Part shown: positions 26,558 to 32,136 of the stretch, in pieces
Layout: each line of letters starts with the position of its first letter
Numbering within the stretch: the first letter of the stretch is position 1
Source of the DNA: Spirochaetota bacterium
GTDB lineage: Bacteria > Spirochaetota > Spirochaetia > Treponematales > Rectinemataceae
Assembly (NCBI GenBank): GCA_029265615.1
Contig: JAJUIB010000024.1
Span: 1 to 34,184 of the forward strand
DNA length: 34,184 bases
Reading direction: 5' to 3'
Program-made: the position numbers and the translations under genes
The notes under the pieces: generated by a model
What the model saw: only the letters and a program-made list of their open reading frames with translations
What the model was told of the DNA's origin: nothing
Databases searched by the model: none

Positions 26558-26707
26558 GGTGGACGAGCATAGCTGGCGAAGGCTTGACCGTCAATCGCGC
26601 CTGTCGGCGCTTGCAGGGCTACTGCTTGCGCCGCGCTTCCCCATGGCGAACGGAGACTCTTAGTGCTCTTGCGGTCTGCCTCCACAAGCCGCTACACTGA
26701 GTCCACG
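26558..26707. other. Divergent intergenic region, DAACS symporter / threonine-synthase-like gene
   Basis: These 150 bases should contain promoters for both genes. I see no convincing -35/-10 pair, terminator or inverted repeat. Confidence 0.4.
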
Positions 26708-27919
26708 ATGCGGTTCTCAAGTTCGCTGGGCGGGGTCGCCATGTCGTTTCTCGAGGCTATGCGCAAGGGCTATCCGCCGGAAGGCGGCCTGTTTTGTCCG
26801 GCAGACGAGATTGACATACGCACCGCGGTCTACGCACCGTCTGGCTCATTCGCCGAGACGGTCGCCCTTGCCGCACCCGCCCTCTTCCCCGACGACATCG
26901 ATCCCTATCGTGCGCTTGCGGTCGCCGAGCGTGTGTTTGTGCCGCCCCCGGCGACCTTCGCGTTCGGCGAGGATATTCTCATCATCGATCTTGCGCGCGG
27001 CCCGACGCGGTCGGCGGCTGACTACAGCGCGGCGTTTACCGCGGAAATGTTTGGCCTGCTTGCCTCTTTAGCGGGAGGAGTGGAACACTATCTGCCGTTT
27101 GCCGCGGCGGAGGGCAAAGAGGCGGCAGCCCTTGTCACCGCATTTACGCACGGCGCTACGTCGGCTACGTCCCCTGCATGTCTTCTCCTCGGTGCGGAAG
27201 ATGGGCTTGCAGGTCTCGATCCCGAAGCCTTTGAGCAGGGAAGGGCGCTTTTTGTCGGCATCGAAGGAGGGAAGGACGCGGCCTTGCGCCTAGAGCGCTC
27301 GCTCGCCGGTCTGCGCGCGCCGGACGGGCGCTTTTTTGTTCCTGTAGGTAAGGCGACACCGGCGCGGCTTACCGGCAGGCTTCTCGTGCTACTTGGCCTT
27401 TTTACGCAGGCGCGCCGTGGCATTGCGAGCGATCTTCTCGTGGCGACACCTCCCGGTGATGGCTTTGGCCTTGTAACCGGGCTCTGGGCCTGGAGTTGGG
27501 GGCTTCCGGTGAGCGCCTTTATTGTTGCGCGTGTTCCGGAATCTGGAGGGAACGATGCGTTTGGGGCTCAGGACGAGGGCGCGCGTGGGCTTATTGCGCG
27601 ATTTGCCCGCGACTATCCGCTGGGATCGCTTGCGCTCTGTGTCGAAGCGACAGACTCCGCCGCCTGTGCCGAGGCCATGGCGGTAGCGGATCAGGGCGGT
27701 CCTCCACTTGACCGCGCATCCGCCTTCGCCCTTGCCGCCGCGCGCCGTGCACTTGACGCGGGATTTGGCGGACATGCACGCATCGTCGTGCCTCGTTTTG
27801 CCGATCCGGCCTGGGACCTGGCCGGTCCGAGCAAAGACTCACGCTTGCGACCTCGTCTTCCCTCCTTCGTCATTCCCCCTGATCCTGCGGCGCTCATCGC
27901 CGCACTCAAGCGAGTATAA
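26708..27919 (+). CDS. Threonine synthase-like protein lacking the PLP lysine
   Basis: The protein follows threonine synthase (ThrC) from end to end: MRFSSSLGGVAMSFLEAM (ThrC start, MKYxSTRG-like), GYPPEGGLFCP (21-31, usually GLaxDGGLyvP), LARGPTRSAAD (95-105, usually fHGPTlAFKD), DLLVATPPGDGFGLVTG (242-258, usually vVPTGNFGnilAG) and WGLPVSAFIVA (264-274). The PLP-binding lysine is replaced by A104, and the ATSGDTG block is replaced by FAAAEGKEAA (131-140). It is therefore unlikely to make threonine by PLP chemistry, and I call it a probable pseudoenzyme. At 403 residues it is slightly short (ThrC about 430-490). The frame is intact and its codon use is like its neighbours, arguing against a decaying pseudogene. 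ATG 26708 has no clear Shine-Dalgarno. Confidence 0.7.
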   Translation: MRFSSSLGGVAMSFLEAMRKGYPPEGGLFCPADEIDIRTAVYAPSGSFAETVALAAPALFPDDIDPYRALAVAERVFVPPPATFAFGEDILIIDLARGPTRSAADYSAAFTAEMFGLLASLAGGVEHYLPFAAAEGKEAAALVTAFTHGATSATSPACLLLGAEDGLAGLDPEAFEQGRALFVGIEGGKDAALRLERSLAGLRAPDGRFFVPVGKATPARLTGRLLVLLGLFTQARRGIASDLLVATPPGDGFGLVTGLWAWSWGLPVSAFIVARVPESGGNDAFGAQDEGARGLIARFARDYPLGSLALCVEATDSAACAEAMAVADQGGPPLDRASAFALAAARRALDAGFGGHARIVVPRFADPAWDLAGPSKDSRLRPRLPSFVIPPDPAALIAALKRV

Positions 27920-27998
27920 CTGGTAGCCGTAAGGCGATCGATCGTCTTAAGAGCCTTCAGCCTTGCTACTTGCGTTGCCAGAGGCGGCGCCGCCTGAT

Positions 27999-29396
27999 AT
28001 GCTCATGGGCATGCGTCCTCCTTTGGCCGATACGGCTTCAAAACTGCGCCACAGTAGTCCAGGTGCGGATTTTTCGGCTCTCATGCGCATCGCGCTGCCC
28101 GTGATGGCGGGGAGCCTTGTCGAGACCCTCTACAATCTCACCGATGCGTATTTTCTAGGCAAGCTTGGTGCCGAGGCTATTTCTGCGCCATCGATTTCCT
28201 TTTCAATTCTCTTTTTTTTAATCGTCTTTGGCTCGGGACTCTCCGGGGCGGGCACGACGCTCATTGCACGCTCGAAGGGGCAGGGCGATGCGTCCCGAAT
28301 GAACTTCTACATGAACCAGATGACAAGTCTTCTTGCCATTGCCTCCTTTGTGCTTGCCCTCGCTGGCTTCGCTGCTTCGAGACCACTACTCAGGTTGCTT
28401 GGCACACCGCCGAGTGTCAGTGCCGCTACGCTGGACTATCTTCGCATCTGTCTTATGGGCCTGCCGTTCATGTTTGCCTATTTCGCGCTTCAATCCGCGT
28501 TTACCGCCGTGGGTGACAGCTTTACGCCACTTATGGTACATCTTTTCGCGGTTGGCGTGAATGTTGTGCTCGATCCCCTGCTCATTTTCGGGTTCGGGCC
28601 CATCCCGCGCCTCGAGGTCGTAGGCGCGGCTCTCGCCACCGTGGTTTCCCAGGCGCTGGCCGCAGCGTTTTCGCTGGCCATCCTTGCCAAGGGGCGTTAC
28701 GGCCTCAGGCTTAGCCCCGGGAGTATGCGCCCCCATGCCGACACCGCCCGGCTCTTTTTGGGCATCGGCCTACCTGCATCCATCGGTCAGGGACTTTCGG
28801 CGCTCGGATTTACCGCCCTCCAGGGGCTTGTCAACGGCTTCGGCGCGAGCGCGATCGCCTGTTTCGGTGTGGGCAATCGCATCGTGAGCCTCTTTGATCT
28901 GCCTGCGCATGGTATTGCGAGCGCGGCGACGACCTTGGCCGGCCAAGCCCTGGGTGCGGGCGATGAGCCGCGTGCCCGGCGCGTCGTGCGCATCGCCCTC
29001 CTTGCGTGTCTCCTCCTACTCACACCGCCGCTCGTCCTCTCGGTCTTTTGGGGCGGCGCTCTTGTCCGCTTCTTTGTCGCCGACCCCGAGGCAGTGAGGC
29101 TGGGCGGCATCATGTTCCGCATTGTGAGCCCGTCGGTGTTATTATTCGGCCTGTATCTTGTCACGACGGGCGCGTTCCAAGGCGCCGGGGCGACGCGCAT
29201 CATCATGATTCTCGCCGTCGCCCGGCTCTGGGTGTTTCGCGTCCCTCTTGCCGCATACCTTATTCGGGGAGCGGAACAGGGGCCCGAGGCAATTTGGTAT
29301 GCGATGTTCGTGTCGAATCTCGTCACAGCACTCGCGGGGTTTGCTTACTACCGGCATGGAAGCTGGGTGCATGCATTGGAGCGTCGAGGACTTTGA
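27999..29396 (+). CDS. MATE family multidrug/metabolite efflux transporter
   Basis: This is a 12-helix inner-membrane antiporter that expels drugs or metabolites with a sodium or proton gradient. The first helix region reads ALPVMAGSLVETLYNLTDAYFLGKLG, whose NxTDxxflGxlG pattern is a MATE hallmark, and the repeat appears in the second half around ALPAHGIASAATTLAGQALGAG-like sequence (DLPAHGIASAATTLAGQ). Length 465 is normal. ATG 27999 is the first of three close ATGs (28005, 28011); a TTG at 27963 is also in frame. There is no clear Shine-Dalgarno, but a perfect 14-base palindrome AGGCGGCGCCGCCT lies at 27979-27992. Substrate unknown. Confidence 0.88.
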   Translation: MLMGMRPPLADTASKLRHSSPGADFSALMRIALPVMAGSLVETLYNLTDAYFLGKLGAEAISAPSISFSILFFLIVFGSGLSGAGTTLIARSKGQGDASRMNFYMNQMTSLLAIASFVLALAGFAASRPLLRLLGTPPSVSAATLDYLRICLMGLPFMFAYFALQSAFTAVGDSFTPLMVHLFAVGVNVVLDPLLIFGFGPIPRLEVVGAALATVVSQALAAAFSLAILAKGRYGLRLSPGSMRPHADTARLFLGIGLPASIGQGLSALGFTALQGLVNGFGASAIACFGVGNRIVSLFDLPAHGIASAATTLAGQALGAGDEPRARRVVRIALLACLLLLTPPLVLSVFWGGALVRFFVADPEAVRLGGIMFRIVSPSVLLFGLYLVTTGAFQGAGATRIIMILAVARLWVFRVPLAAYLIRGAEQGPEAIWYAMFVSNLVTALAGFAYYRHGSWVHALERRGL

Positions 29397-29472: not shown

Positions 29473-29546
29473 GACCCAGTAGCTCAGTTGGATAGAGCGG
29501 CTGCCTCCTAAGCAGCAGGTCGTGCGTTCGATTCGCGCCTGGGCCA
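29473..29546 (+). tRNA. tRNA-Arg (anticodon CCU)
   Basis: A complete cloverleaf folds: D arm GCTC/GAGC, anticodon arm GCTGC-CTCCTAA-GCAGC with anticodon CCT (29506-29508), five-base variable loop AGGTC, and T arm GTGCG-TTCGATT-CGCGC. The acceptor arm GACCCAG/CTGGGCC pairs except for an A2-C71 mismatch. CCA is not encoded (ATC follows A73). It reads AGG codons. Own promoter upstream and terminator downstream make it a single-gene unit. Confidence 0.95.
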
Positions 29547-29677: not shown

Positions 29678-32095
29678 TTATGCGTCGTCCTCGGGCGATG
29701 CCGACGGCATCGCCGATGGCCCGCGATCTGCAAGTTTCCGCTGTTCTTCTGCCTGTGCGAGGGCCTCGAGCTCGGCGAAGGGATCCTTTTTCGACTCATC
29801 GTAACCTTTTCGAATGTCCTCAAGGTAGCGTGAAAGCTCTTCGGTTTTTGACTTGAGCCGGTCGATCCCTTCGTCCCCAAAACCCTCGCCTGCTGCCTTA
29901 AGACGGGCCATATCGATACGCATCTGCTTGAGCTGATTCACTGACGAGCCGAGGCGCAGGCGGAGCACTTCGCTTTGGTTCTTGAGCTCTTCGTAGGACT
30001 TCTCCTGTTTTTCGATCTCCTCGATCGACCTCCGGTATTCGGACTTGAGGCCAGGCGATGCGGCCTGAGCTTCTTTGGCAAGGAGCGCATCCTTGTCGCG
30101 GGCAAGCTCGGCCATCGGAATGGCTTCGATAATGCGGTCGACCTCATTGGCCGATTGGGCGAGTAGTCGTATCTGGCCTACGTAGGCTTCAAGCGAAGGA
30201 GCGAGGTCTGCGTCAAGGGGCGCTCCCGACCGTAGTTGCGACAATATAGCTAGCTTGGCGCGTTCCGCTTCATGGTAGGCTTCGGCGTAGGGTCCAAGGT
30301 CGGCACGAGCGGCTTTGTTTGCTTTGCCCGCGCGGAAGAGTGCTCTCCATCCACCATCGATGCCGAGCGATGCAAGGAGCTCTCGCTCAAGCCGTGGTTT
30401 GGTGACGCGGTAGGTGACGAGGTGCGAGAAGTAACTGAAGGCAAGCGCTGCCGTGGGGATGAGGGCCCAGAGAAATCCCGAGCCCGTCATGAGGTTGAGG
30501 AGGAGGAGAAATGCGGGCACGGTGACGACGTTCACGCCGTGCATTGCGATCGAATCCTTCGCTCGGTTTAGTTTTTTGTAGGTTTCGAGCTGGCTAGGAT
30601 CGAGGCTCGGCATCATTTCGACCTCGCGCGTCTTTGCCGCACCGCGGGACGCCGCGACCGCCGAGCTCGCAAGACCGATTCCCCAGGCGCCGCTTACGAT
30701 CGCGGCCCACAAGAAGCCCGGGGCAGTGGAGAAGTTGATTGCCCAGAGGATCGCATTTACGGCGAGGTAGCTCGTCAAATTGCCGATAAAGCCGCCGCGT
30801 TGTTTGCGCGCGCGCTCGGACAGCGCGGTGCGGTAGCGTTCGAAATCTTCGGCCCGTTCCTCCCGGTCGGGATTCCACTGCTCATCGTTCCGAAGATCCT
30901 TGTCCCACTTGCCTGTTTTCAGCTCGGAAAGGTCACGGCGGATTGCCGCCTTGAGTTCGGCGCGCGCTTCGCGCCGCGCGTAGCGCTCGTGTCGGCGCCC
31001 CCCCCGTCCATATTCGCTGTACTGCGACGCATAATCGCGGCCCATGGAGGCATAGGACTCGCCGTTTCGCCGATGGGCGAGGCCGCGCTCGATCTCGCCG
31101 ACTAAGCCCTCGACCGCGGCGCCGAGGCTCTTGCCGAAGGCTTCGGCATCAAAGCCCCCGATCGAAGAACGATCGCGCGTGAGAATCCCTTCGTCGGACA
31201 TGGTCGCGATTACCTCGCGAGCTTCGACGCCGTAATAGCCGTAGCGGTCGAGGGCTTCGCGGACGCTGAGTCGCCTGCCTAAGGCCTTTATGTCGCCAAG
31301 AATCGCCTTGCGAATCTCGGCGAGCACCTGCTTTGAGCCTTCCGCGGAGTAATCGCGGTCTGCCTCGGGAGGATGTCGTTCTGCGGTGTGCTGTGCTTCG
31401 CCATCGTCCCGGACGGGAGTAGCGGCTACCGCGGCGGTCTGCGTGGCGGACGCGGAATCGTGAGCTGCCGAGGCCTCTTTCTCCTCGACTCCGCGCTCTG
31501 CGTGTGGGCTTTCGCCAAGGTATGAACCTGGTGTGTAGCCGGGACGGGGCTTGTCTCGATTTGGGTCAAACTCGACGTTCGGGCTGGTGATCTCGTAGGC
31601 ATGAATTTCTTTTGTGATGTTTTTAAGCGAGACCTTGCCGAGTTTTTCGGCCCTAAACTCGATCTTGTTGAGTACAAGGTTATAGACATCCTGGGAAAAG
31701 CAGATGCACCCGGGCCGTGCGAGGGACTGTAGGCGCGCCGCGATGTTGATACCCTCGCCCAAGGCATCATTCTCAAAAAAGTAGATATCACCGAGGTGGA
31801 TGCCAATCCGCACAAGGAGTGGGAGCTCCGGATGTTCCTTGTTGTGGGCGTAGAGCTTGTCCTGTATCTCGAGGGCGCTTTGCAGGGCTTCGACGGTGTT
31901 TTTAAAGTCGACCAGAAGCGCATCGCCGATTGTTTTGATCACCGTGCCATGGTGGCTTGCGACGATGCCACCGATGAGTTCGTTGTGGAACCGGAGGAGC
32001 TCGAGGGTGCCCGACTCGTCAGCCTCCATCATTCGGGAAAAACCGGCGATGTCTGTGTACATAATCGCCGCGAGCCGATAGTCCTTTTGCTCCAT
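29678..32095 (-). CDS. Class III nucleotide cyclase with two 2TM modules and coiled coil
   Basis: The N-terminal 170 residues form a class III adenylate/guanylate cyclase domain: metal aspartates D15 (MYTDIAGFS) and D58 (KTIGDALLV), base-contact K54, and transition-state N117/R121 (GEGINIAAR). Lysine at 54 favours ATP. Then come a disordered acidic/Ala-rich linker (about 175-255), a helical segment (about 256-340), an Arg/Glu-rich stretch, two 2TM-type membrane modules (about 436-480 and 513-562) and a long coiled coil (about 680-790), 805 residues in all. The catalytic domain is N-terminal and cytoplasmic, unlike most receptor cyclases. I chose ATG 32095 (MEQKDYRLAAIMYTDIAGF); TTG 32134 and ATG 32119 are in frame; no start has a good Shine-Dalgarno. 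It follows the RNB gene by 41 bases. Confidence 0.85.
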   Translation of the reverse strand: MEQKDYRLAAIMYTDIAGFSRMMEADESGTLELLRFHNELIGGIVASHHGTVIKTIGDALLVDFKNTVEALQSALEIQDKLYAHNKEHPELPLLVRIGIHLGDIYFFENDALGEGINIAARLQSLARPGCICFSQDVYNLVLNKIEFRAEKLGKVSLKNITKEIHAYEITSPNVEFDPNRDKPRPGYTPGSYLGESPHAERGVEEKEASAAHDSASATQTAAVAATPVRDDGEAQHTAERHPPEADRDYSAEGSKQVLAEIRKAILGDIKALGRRLSVREALDRYGYYGVEAREVIATMSDEGILTRDRSSIGGFDAEAFGKSLGAAVEGLVGEIERGLAHRRNGESYASMGRDYASQYSEYGRGGRRHERYARREARAELKAAIRRDLSELKTGKWDKDLRNDEQWNPDREERAEDFERYRTALSERARKQRGGFIGNLTSYLAVNAILWAINFSTAPGFLWAAIVSGAWGIGLASSAVAASRGAAKTREVEMMPSLDPSQLETYKKLNRAKDSIAMHGVNVVTVPAFLLLLNLMTGSGFLWALIPTAALAFSYFSHLVTYRVTKPRLERELLASLGIDGGWRALFRAGKANKAARADLGPYAEAYHEAERAKLAILSQLRSGAPLDADLAPSLEAYVGQIRLLAQSANEVDRIIEAIPMAELARDKDALLAKEAQAASPGLKSEYRRSIEEIEKQEKSYEELKNQSEVLRLRLGSSVNQLKQMRIDMARLKAAGEGFGDEGIDRLKSKTEELSRYLEDIRKGYDESKKDPFAELEALAQAEEQRKLADRGPSAMPSASPEDDA

Positions 32096-32136
32096 AGTAG
32101 AAGAAGAATAGGCGAGCATTCCTTGCCGCGTCAATC

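Follow-up and report, generated by a model that had tools for sequence, protein, structure and literature searches.

A threonine synthase homologue without its PLP lysine, paired with an SDF transporter gene in a family of spirochaetes

We report on pThrC, a threonine synthase (ThrC) homologue encoded in a stretch of 34,184 nucleotides of a Spirochaetota genome, hereafter the window. It is very probably a protein of the ThrC fold that has been maintained without catalytic activity. We read it as a maintained pseudoenzyme because its cofactor and substrate motifs are lost throughout its clade, the frames are open, dN/dS points to constraint, the pairing with an SDF (sodium:dicarboxylate symporter superfamily) transporter gene is conserved, and the gene is independent of canonical thrC. 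That pThrC might regulate the transporter module next to it, or serve it as an adaptor, is a possibility that we put forward tentatively.

A threonine synthase fold without cofactor motifs

The original prediction had announced an intact frame of 403 codons with a recognisable ThrC layout, in which the PLP lysine had become A104 and the ATSGDTG block was gone; each of these points holds. The frame has zero internal stops and ends on a stop codon. The open reading frame as listed could begin at a GTG at 26663, for a product of 418 residues; the ATG at 26708 is the start that agrees with the start position in all homologues, and a conserved -10-like box lies 9 nt upstream of it. An artefact caused by a frameshift or a wrong frame was ruled out, since frame and start are common to nine homologues.

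The only significant relatives of pThrC are threonine synthases. By sequence, its best match in the PDB is the E. coli ThrC structure 1vb3 (phmmer, E 4e-6), and the predicted fold leads to the same structure: the AlphaFold2 model has a pLDDT of 88.2 and a pTM of 0.90, a Foldseek search with it returns ThrC structures first, with 1vb3 at the top (E 4e-19), and VIA-align superposes it on 1vb3 with Z 38.7, 385 residues being aligned at 3.5 A. The alignment of 14 relatives supplied to AlphaFold2 includes ThrC-like proteins that carry the lysine, and consequently the model supports the ThrC fold without proving it. The likeness to ThrC is not due to chance. Pfam and NCBIfam searches with the window protein give no family-level match: nothing in NCBIfam is matched at E 1, TIGR00260 included, and the Thr_synth_N domain PF14821, which homologue L002 matches with 27.1 bits (cut-off 25), is not found.

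In the alignment with E. coli ThrC, residues 97-105 of pThrC, RGPTRSAAD, pair with HGPTLAFKD, which places A104 opposite K107, and AAAEGKEAAALV stands in place of the SGDTG block. A third loss, absent from the original prediction, affects the PLP phosphate cup, where SGNFG has become PGDGFG. The lysine position holds A or E in all nine members of the pThrC clade, and the GNFG cup is substituted across the clade, usually with an acidic residue; the lysine is kept, in the form FKD or YKD, in every relative inspected outside the family (about 90 sequences of the same order). A PLP-binding lysine in another segment was named in the original prediction as a finding that would refute it, but the alignment of the clade has no column in which a lysine is conserved, and a second lysine for PLP was rejected on this ground. 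The predicted fold is homologous to that of a PLP enzyme, with catalytic residues lost throughout a conserved clade. These results support the view that pThrC is a ThrC-fold protein unable to use PLP by the known route; it is not a threonine synthase and, judging by the residues lost, it probably no longer binds PLP.

Distribution and origin

Nine full-length or nearly full-length homologues were found among genomes of the same order, which holds Treponema, and all belong to one GTDB family, here f1. They come from G000, the window's own genome, and from G002, G003, G004, G005, G008, G010, G015 and G017; another f1 genome, G001, has a fragment at the end of a contig. The tree groups the nine together with support 100/100, and places beside them, with joint support 100/99, the sequences L011, L015 and L098 of a second family, f4; sequence L020 has a long branch and its placement is unsure. 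Those records of relatives that bear names belong to the Spirochaetota, for the most part as MAGs of Treponema and Spirochaetaceae.

The f4 sequences represent ThrC2, a second threonine synthase of the order. Unlike pThrC, they have the lysine and the remaining motifs intact; like pThrC, they occupy a site next to the SDF gene, since in genomes G032 and G037 and in the record of L098 ThrC2 lies between the SDF gene and a MATE gene. Because this gene order is common to both, the sites of pThrC and of f4 ThrC2 are taken as homologous. In the f4 genomes G035, G040, G043, G048 and G057, the SDF gene adjoins the MATE gene with no ThrC gene in between, and MATE therefore flanks the equivalent site in f4 whether or not a ThrC gene is present. 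Either ThrC2 was at this site early and was lost several times, or it was inserted there.

Genomes G032 and G037, whose ThrC2 proteins (L015 and L011, respectively) have an intact active site, give no match to homoserine dehydrogenase and none to thrB over the cut-off. This suggests that ThrC2 had ceased to serve threonine synthesis by the time the lysine disappeared, an order of events that we infer. Many of the ThrC2 proteins of termite-gut and other Treponema (L052-L126) keep the lysine but show an altered TSGDTG block, ATRGDTG or AARGDTG for instance; this is a second line of divergence, and it may point to another substrate.

The neighbourhood of the gene

Table 1. Features of the window at and around the pThrC gene.
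Feature	Positions	Strand	Remarks
PtsN-like PTS EIIA protein, 155 aa	24840..25307	-	directly downstream of the SDF gene; phospho-His motif GIAIPHG kept
SDF transporter, 410 aa	25325..26557	-	divergent neighbour of every pThrC found
Divergent spacer	26558..26707		between the SDF and pThrC genes
Predicted SDF promoter	26566..26594	-	TTGACG, 17 nt, TATGCT, 8 nt to ATG; conserved in f1 and f4
Predicted pThrC promoter	26669..26698	+	TTGCGG (26669-26674), 18 nt, TACACT (26693-26698), 9 nt to ATG
pThrC, threonine synthase homologue lacking the PLP lysine, 403 aa	26708..27919	+	lysine replaced by A104; neither SGDTG nor GNFG block kept
MATE efflux transporter	27963..29396	+	follows pThrC in some members of the family
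tRNA-Arg (CCT) gene	29473..29546		downstream of MATE
818-aa protein	29678..32134		N-terminal class III nucleotide cyclase-like domain; long unrecognised C-terminal part

The transporter facing pThrC is itself unusual. Where aspartate transporters carry NMDGT, the window protein has FGRAGT, and all 17 SDF proteins of the order that were aligned have GRAGT or close variants; with this motif changed, neither the substrate nor the coupling ion can be presumed. The SDF gene is present in 55 of the 59 genomes of the order that were searched. Beyond it, the EIIA gene follows in most pThrC loci that reach that far, G010 being an exception, and other genomes of f4 and f1 carry the stretch SDF-EIIA-FtsH but no pThrC with it. 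The SDF transporter, therefore, does not need pThrC. On the other side, MATE lies downstream of pThrC in the window and in G002, G003, G004 and G015.

The spacer between the two divergent genes contains promoter-like boxes at 8-9 nt from each start codon (6-12 nt in f1), which are matches to the consensus only. Boxes equivalent to those of pThrC occur in all nine homologues, with per-locus shuffle p of 0.000-0.030. Boxes so near the start codons would imply very short leaders, or leaderless mRNAs, for both pThrC and SDF. A search of the locus with Rfam found no RNA regulator, its sole match being a tRNA.

Maintenance or erosion

Four rival explanations were ranked. In falling order of likelihood they are slow erosion, a reaction of a new kind without PLP, a partner subunit of ThrC and, last, an unseen PLP enzyme. 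The first of these holds that ThrC2 lost its substrate, that constraint on pThrC has since been weak and mainly a matter of folding, and that the gene, having gained no specific function, is disappearing from one lineage after another. We consider it unlikely, yet several observations speak for it. The gene is cleanly absent from G018, which belongs to the same genus as G010 and in which an AlaX-like gene directly faces SDF; the copy of G010 is very divergent, with a branch of 2.88 and missing segments. Furthermore, pThrC evolves faster than its neighbour, with about 40% identity versus 65% for SDF, and a dN/dS of 0.28 versus 0.13 in the genomes of the pair L005/L006. Among the residues unique to the pThrC clade, few are invariant and none looks catalytic.

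Against erosion, all nine frames are open at pairwise identities of mostly 27-52%, and the promoter-like boxes of pThrC are kept. The lysine is missing from all nine proteins so that, in the simplest reading, the dead form has lasted while at least seven genera diverged. The ratio of 0.28 was measured in L005/L006 only, the least saturated pThrC pair (dN 0.249, dS 0.913), and its bootstrap interval, 0.21-0.37, excludes neutrality for that pair. Between the pThrC gene of the window and its relatives, dS ranges from 1.4 to 2.8, synonymous sites being nearly saturated, and no ratio was taken; third positions differ most in every one of these comparisons.

The gene is thus under purifying selection where this was measured, yet dispensable in at least one lineage. 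The original prediction had opted for a pseudoenzyme over a decaying gene, and had named a dN/dS near 1 as the sign of a pseudogene. Nine open frames and the ratio found in one pair are not those of a pseudogene and, together with the shared losses and the boxes, they side with its choice; the rate, higher than that of SDF, and the loss in G018 weigh on the other side.

Catalysis or partnership

A protein that is maintained could also have had its cleft rebuilt for another, cofactor-free reaction. The pThrC model keeps the fold and the frame of the cleft, and residues S102, D105, W260 and W262 are invariant throughout the clade. However, no cluster of catalytic type is conserved, there being no invariant His, Cys or Lys at all, and the search found no related enzyme of such a kind, which makes this explanation improbable.

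Less probable still is a non-catalytic subunit that assists the cell's own threonine synthase, a role that the original prediction had listed among its options. Partner-activating dead paralogues are known: in trypanosomatid DHS, a dead paralogue activates its partner (PMC3663545). Moreover, most of the sister genomes also hold a canonical thrC. It has intact motifs in 7 of the 8 pThrC-bearing f1 sister genomes examined, mostly with thrB beside it; in the eighth, G004, a thrC family match over the cut-off lies in a stretch where the motif pattern has no match. Since canonical thrC coexists with pThrC in these sisters, the loss of the PLP lysine there does not amount to a loss of the pathway.

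The window's own genome offers no such partner. It is 99.9% complete and has a homoserine dehydrogenase (the threonine-branch observations fall on contigs C18 and C20), but the check for a true thrC elsewhere in it returned no canonical thrC, no thrB over the cut-off and no thrB_alt, the alternative homoserine kinase TIGR00938. Canonical thrC and thrB were likewise not found in a second member of the genus (90% complete, 650 contigs). The threonine branch seems broken in this genus, which, to judge from gene content, is probably a threonine auxotroph with no thrB-thrC route. With no canonical thrC found there, pThrC is unlikely to be a partner of ThrC in the window's genus; in addition, pThrC adjoins canonical thrC in no genome examined, and E. 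coli ThrC is considered monomeric.

Matches to the PALP fold in the window's genome were set aside as candidates for thrC: besides CysK and TrpB, they comprise a weak fragment, a YgeX-like protein and a Zn-ribbon PALP protein that bears the motif GSYKDR and scores 139 bits, below the thrC cut-off of 167. The last was not taken as thrC because counterparts with similar scores accompany canonical ThrC in the sisters, and because of its context: it lies in record L138 (12738-16652, contig C20 of G000), between YgeY-like and YgeX-like genes. Xanthine-dehydrogenase-like and amidohydrolase genes are found near it.

Finally, a pThrC that still works as a PLP enzyme, through another lysine or with PLP held non-covalently, would agree with the retained fold, but is hardly credible with no lysine conserved in the clade and both the phosphate cup and SGDTG lost.

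Discussion

We return to the reading of pThrC as a maintained pseudoenzyme. A second threonine synthase of the order, ThrC2, would have given rise to a PLP-free descendant, which purifying selection would keep for a non-catalytic task. The protein may still bind a small ligand in its interdomain cleft, and its opening and closing could regulate the SDF and PtsN-like EIIA module from the cytoplasm, or serve as an adaptor to it; the import of an amino-acid-like solute would thereby be tied to the cellular level of that solute. Ligand sensing, also among the options of the original prediction, is a guess, and what strengthens it is the fixed SDF neighbourhood. Held together, a maintained non-catalytic protein and a regulator or adaptor of this module make a conjecture that we hold at somewhat less than an even chance. 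More doubtful is the stepwise scenario in which ThrC became ThrC2 beside SDF and then a PLP-free protein dedicated to an unusual SDF/EIIA module, as its regulator or as a receptor subunit.

The closest known system is ThrC itself (E. coli, PDB 1vb3; TIGR00260, PF14821 and PF00291; a PLP enzyme of fold type II, EC 4.2.3.1), whose fold matches the predicted one over the whole length. Both have the core segments GP[TS]...D and LWAW.GLP and, by the prediction, a like N-terminal domain layout; pThrC is shorter, 403 residues versus 428, and lies outside any thr operon.

Other homologues of PLP enzymes have changed roles. AZIN1, the antizyme inhibitor, and SPTLC1 are relatives of ornithine decarboxylase and of serine palmitoyltransferase, of fold types other than that of ThrC. 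Both have acquired non-enzymic roles (PMC2748086); these proteins are eukaryotic and their roles established, whereas that of pThrC is conjectural. The THNSL2 or TSH2 phospho-lyases are, like pThrC, ThrC-like proteins outside threonine biosynthesis, the murine homologue having phospho-lyase activity (PMC2748086), but they are still PLP enzymes and retain the lysine that pThrC lacks. A threonine synthase of Microcystis also diverged after duplication and has a second activity; in contrast to pThrC, it keeps PLP-dependent activities, as synthase and as threonine deaminase (PMC12172450). In the open-licence literature searched, no pseudoenzyme derived from ThrC was found, and the novelty of pThrC is provisional to that extent.

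Pseudoenzymes in general are already well known, and proteins such as pThrC escape both Pfam and NCBIfam. What the pThrC clade offers is a dead form, a sister with an intact site at the same place in the genome and, in several of the clade's genomes, a normal ThrC as well; because all three are available, the path from an enzyme to a protein without catalysis is open to testing.
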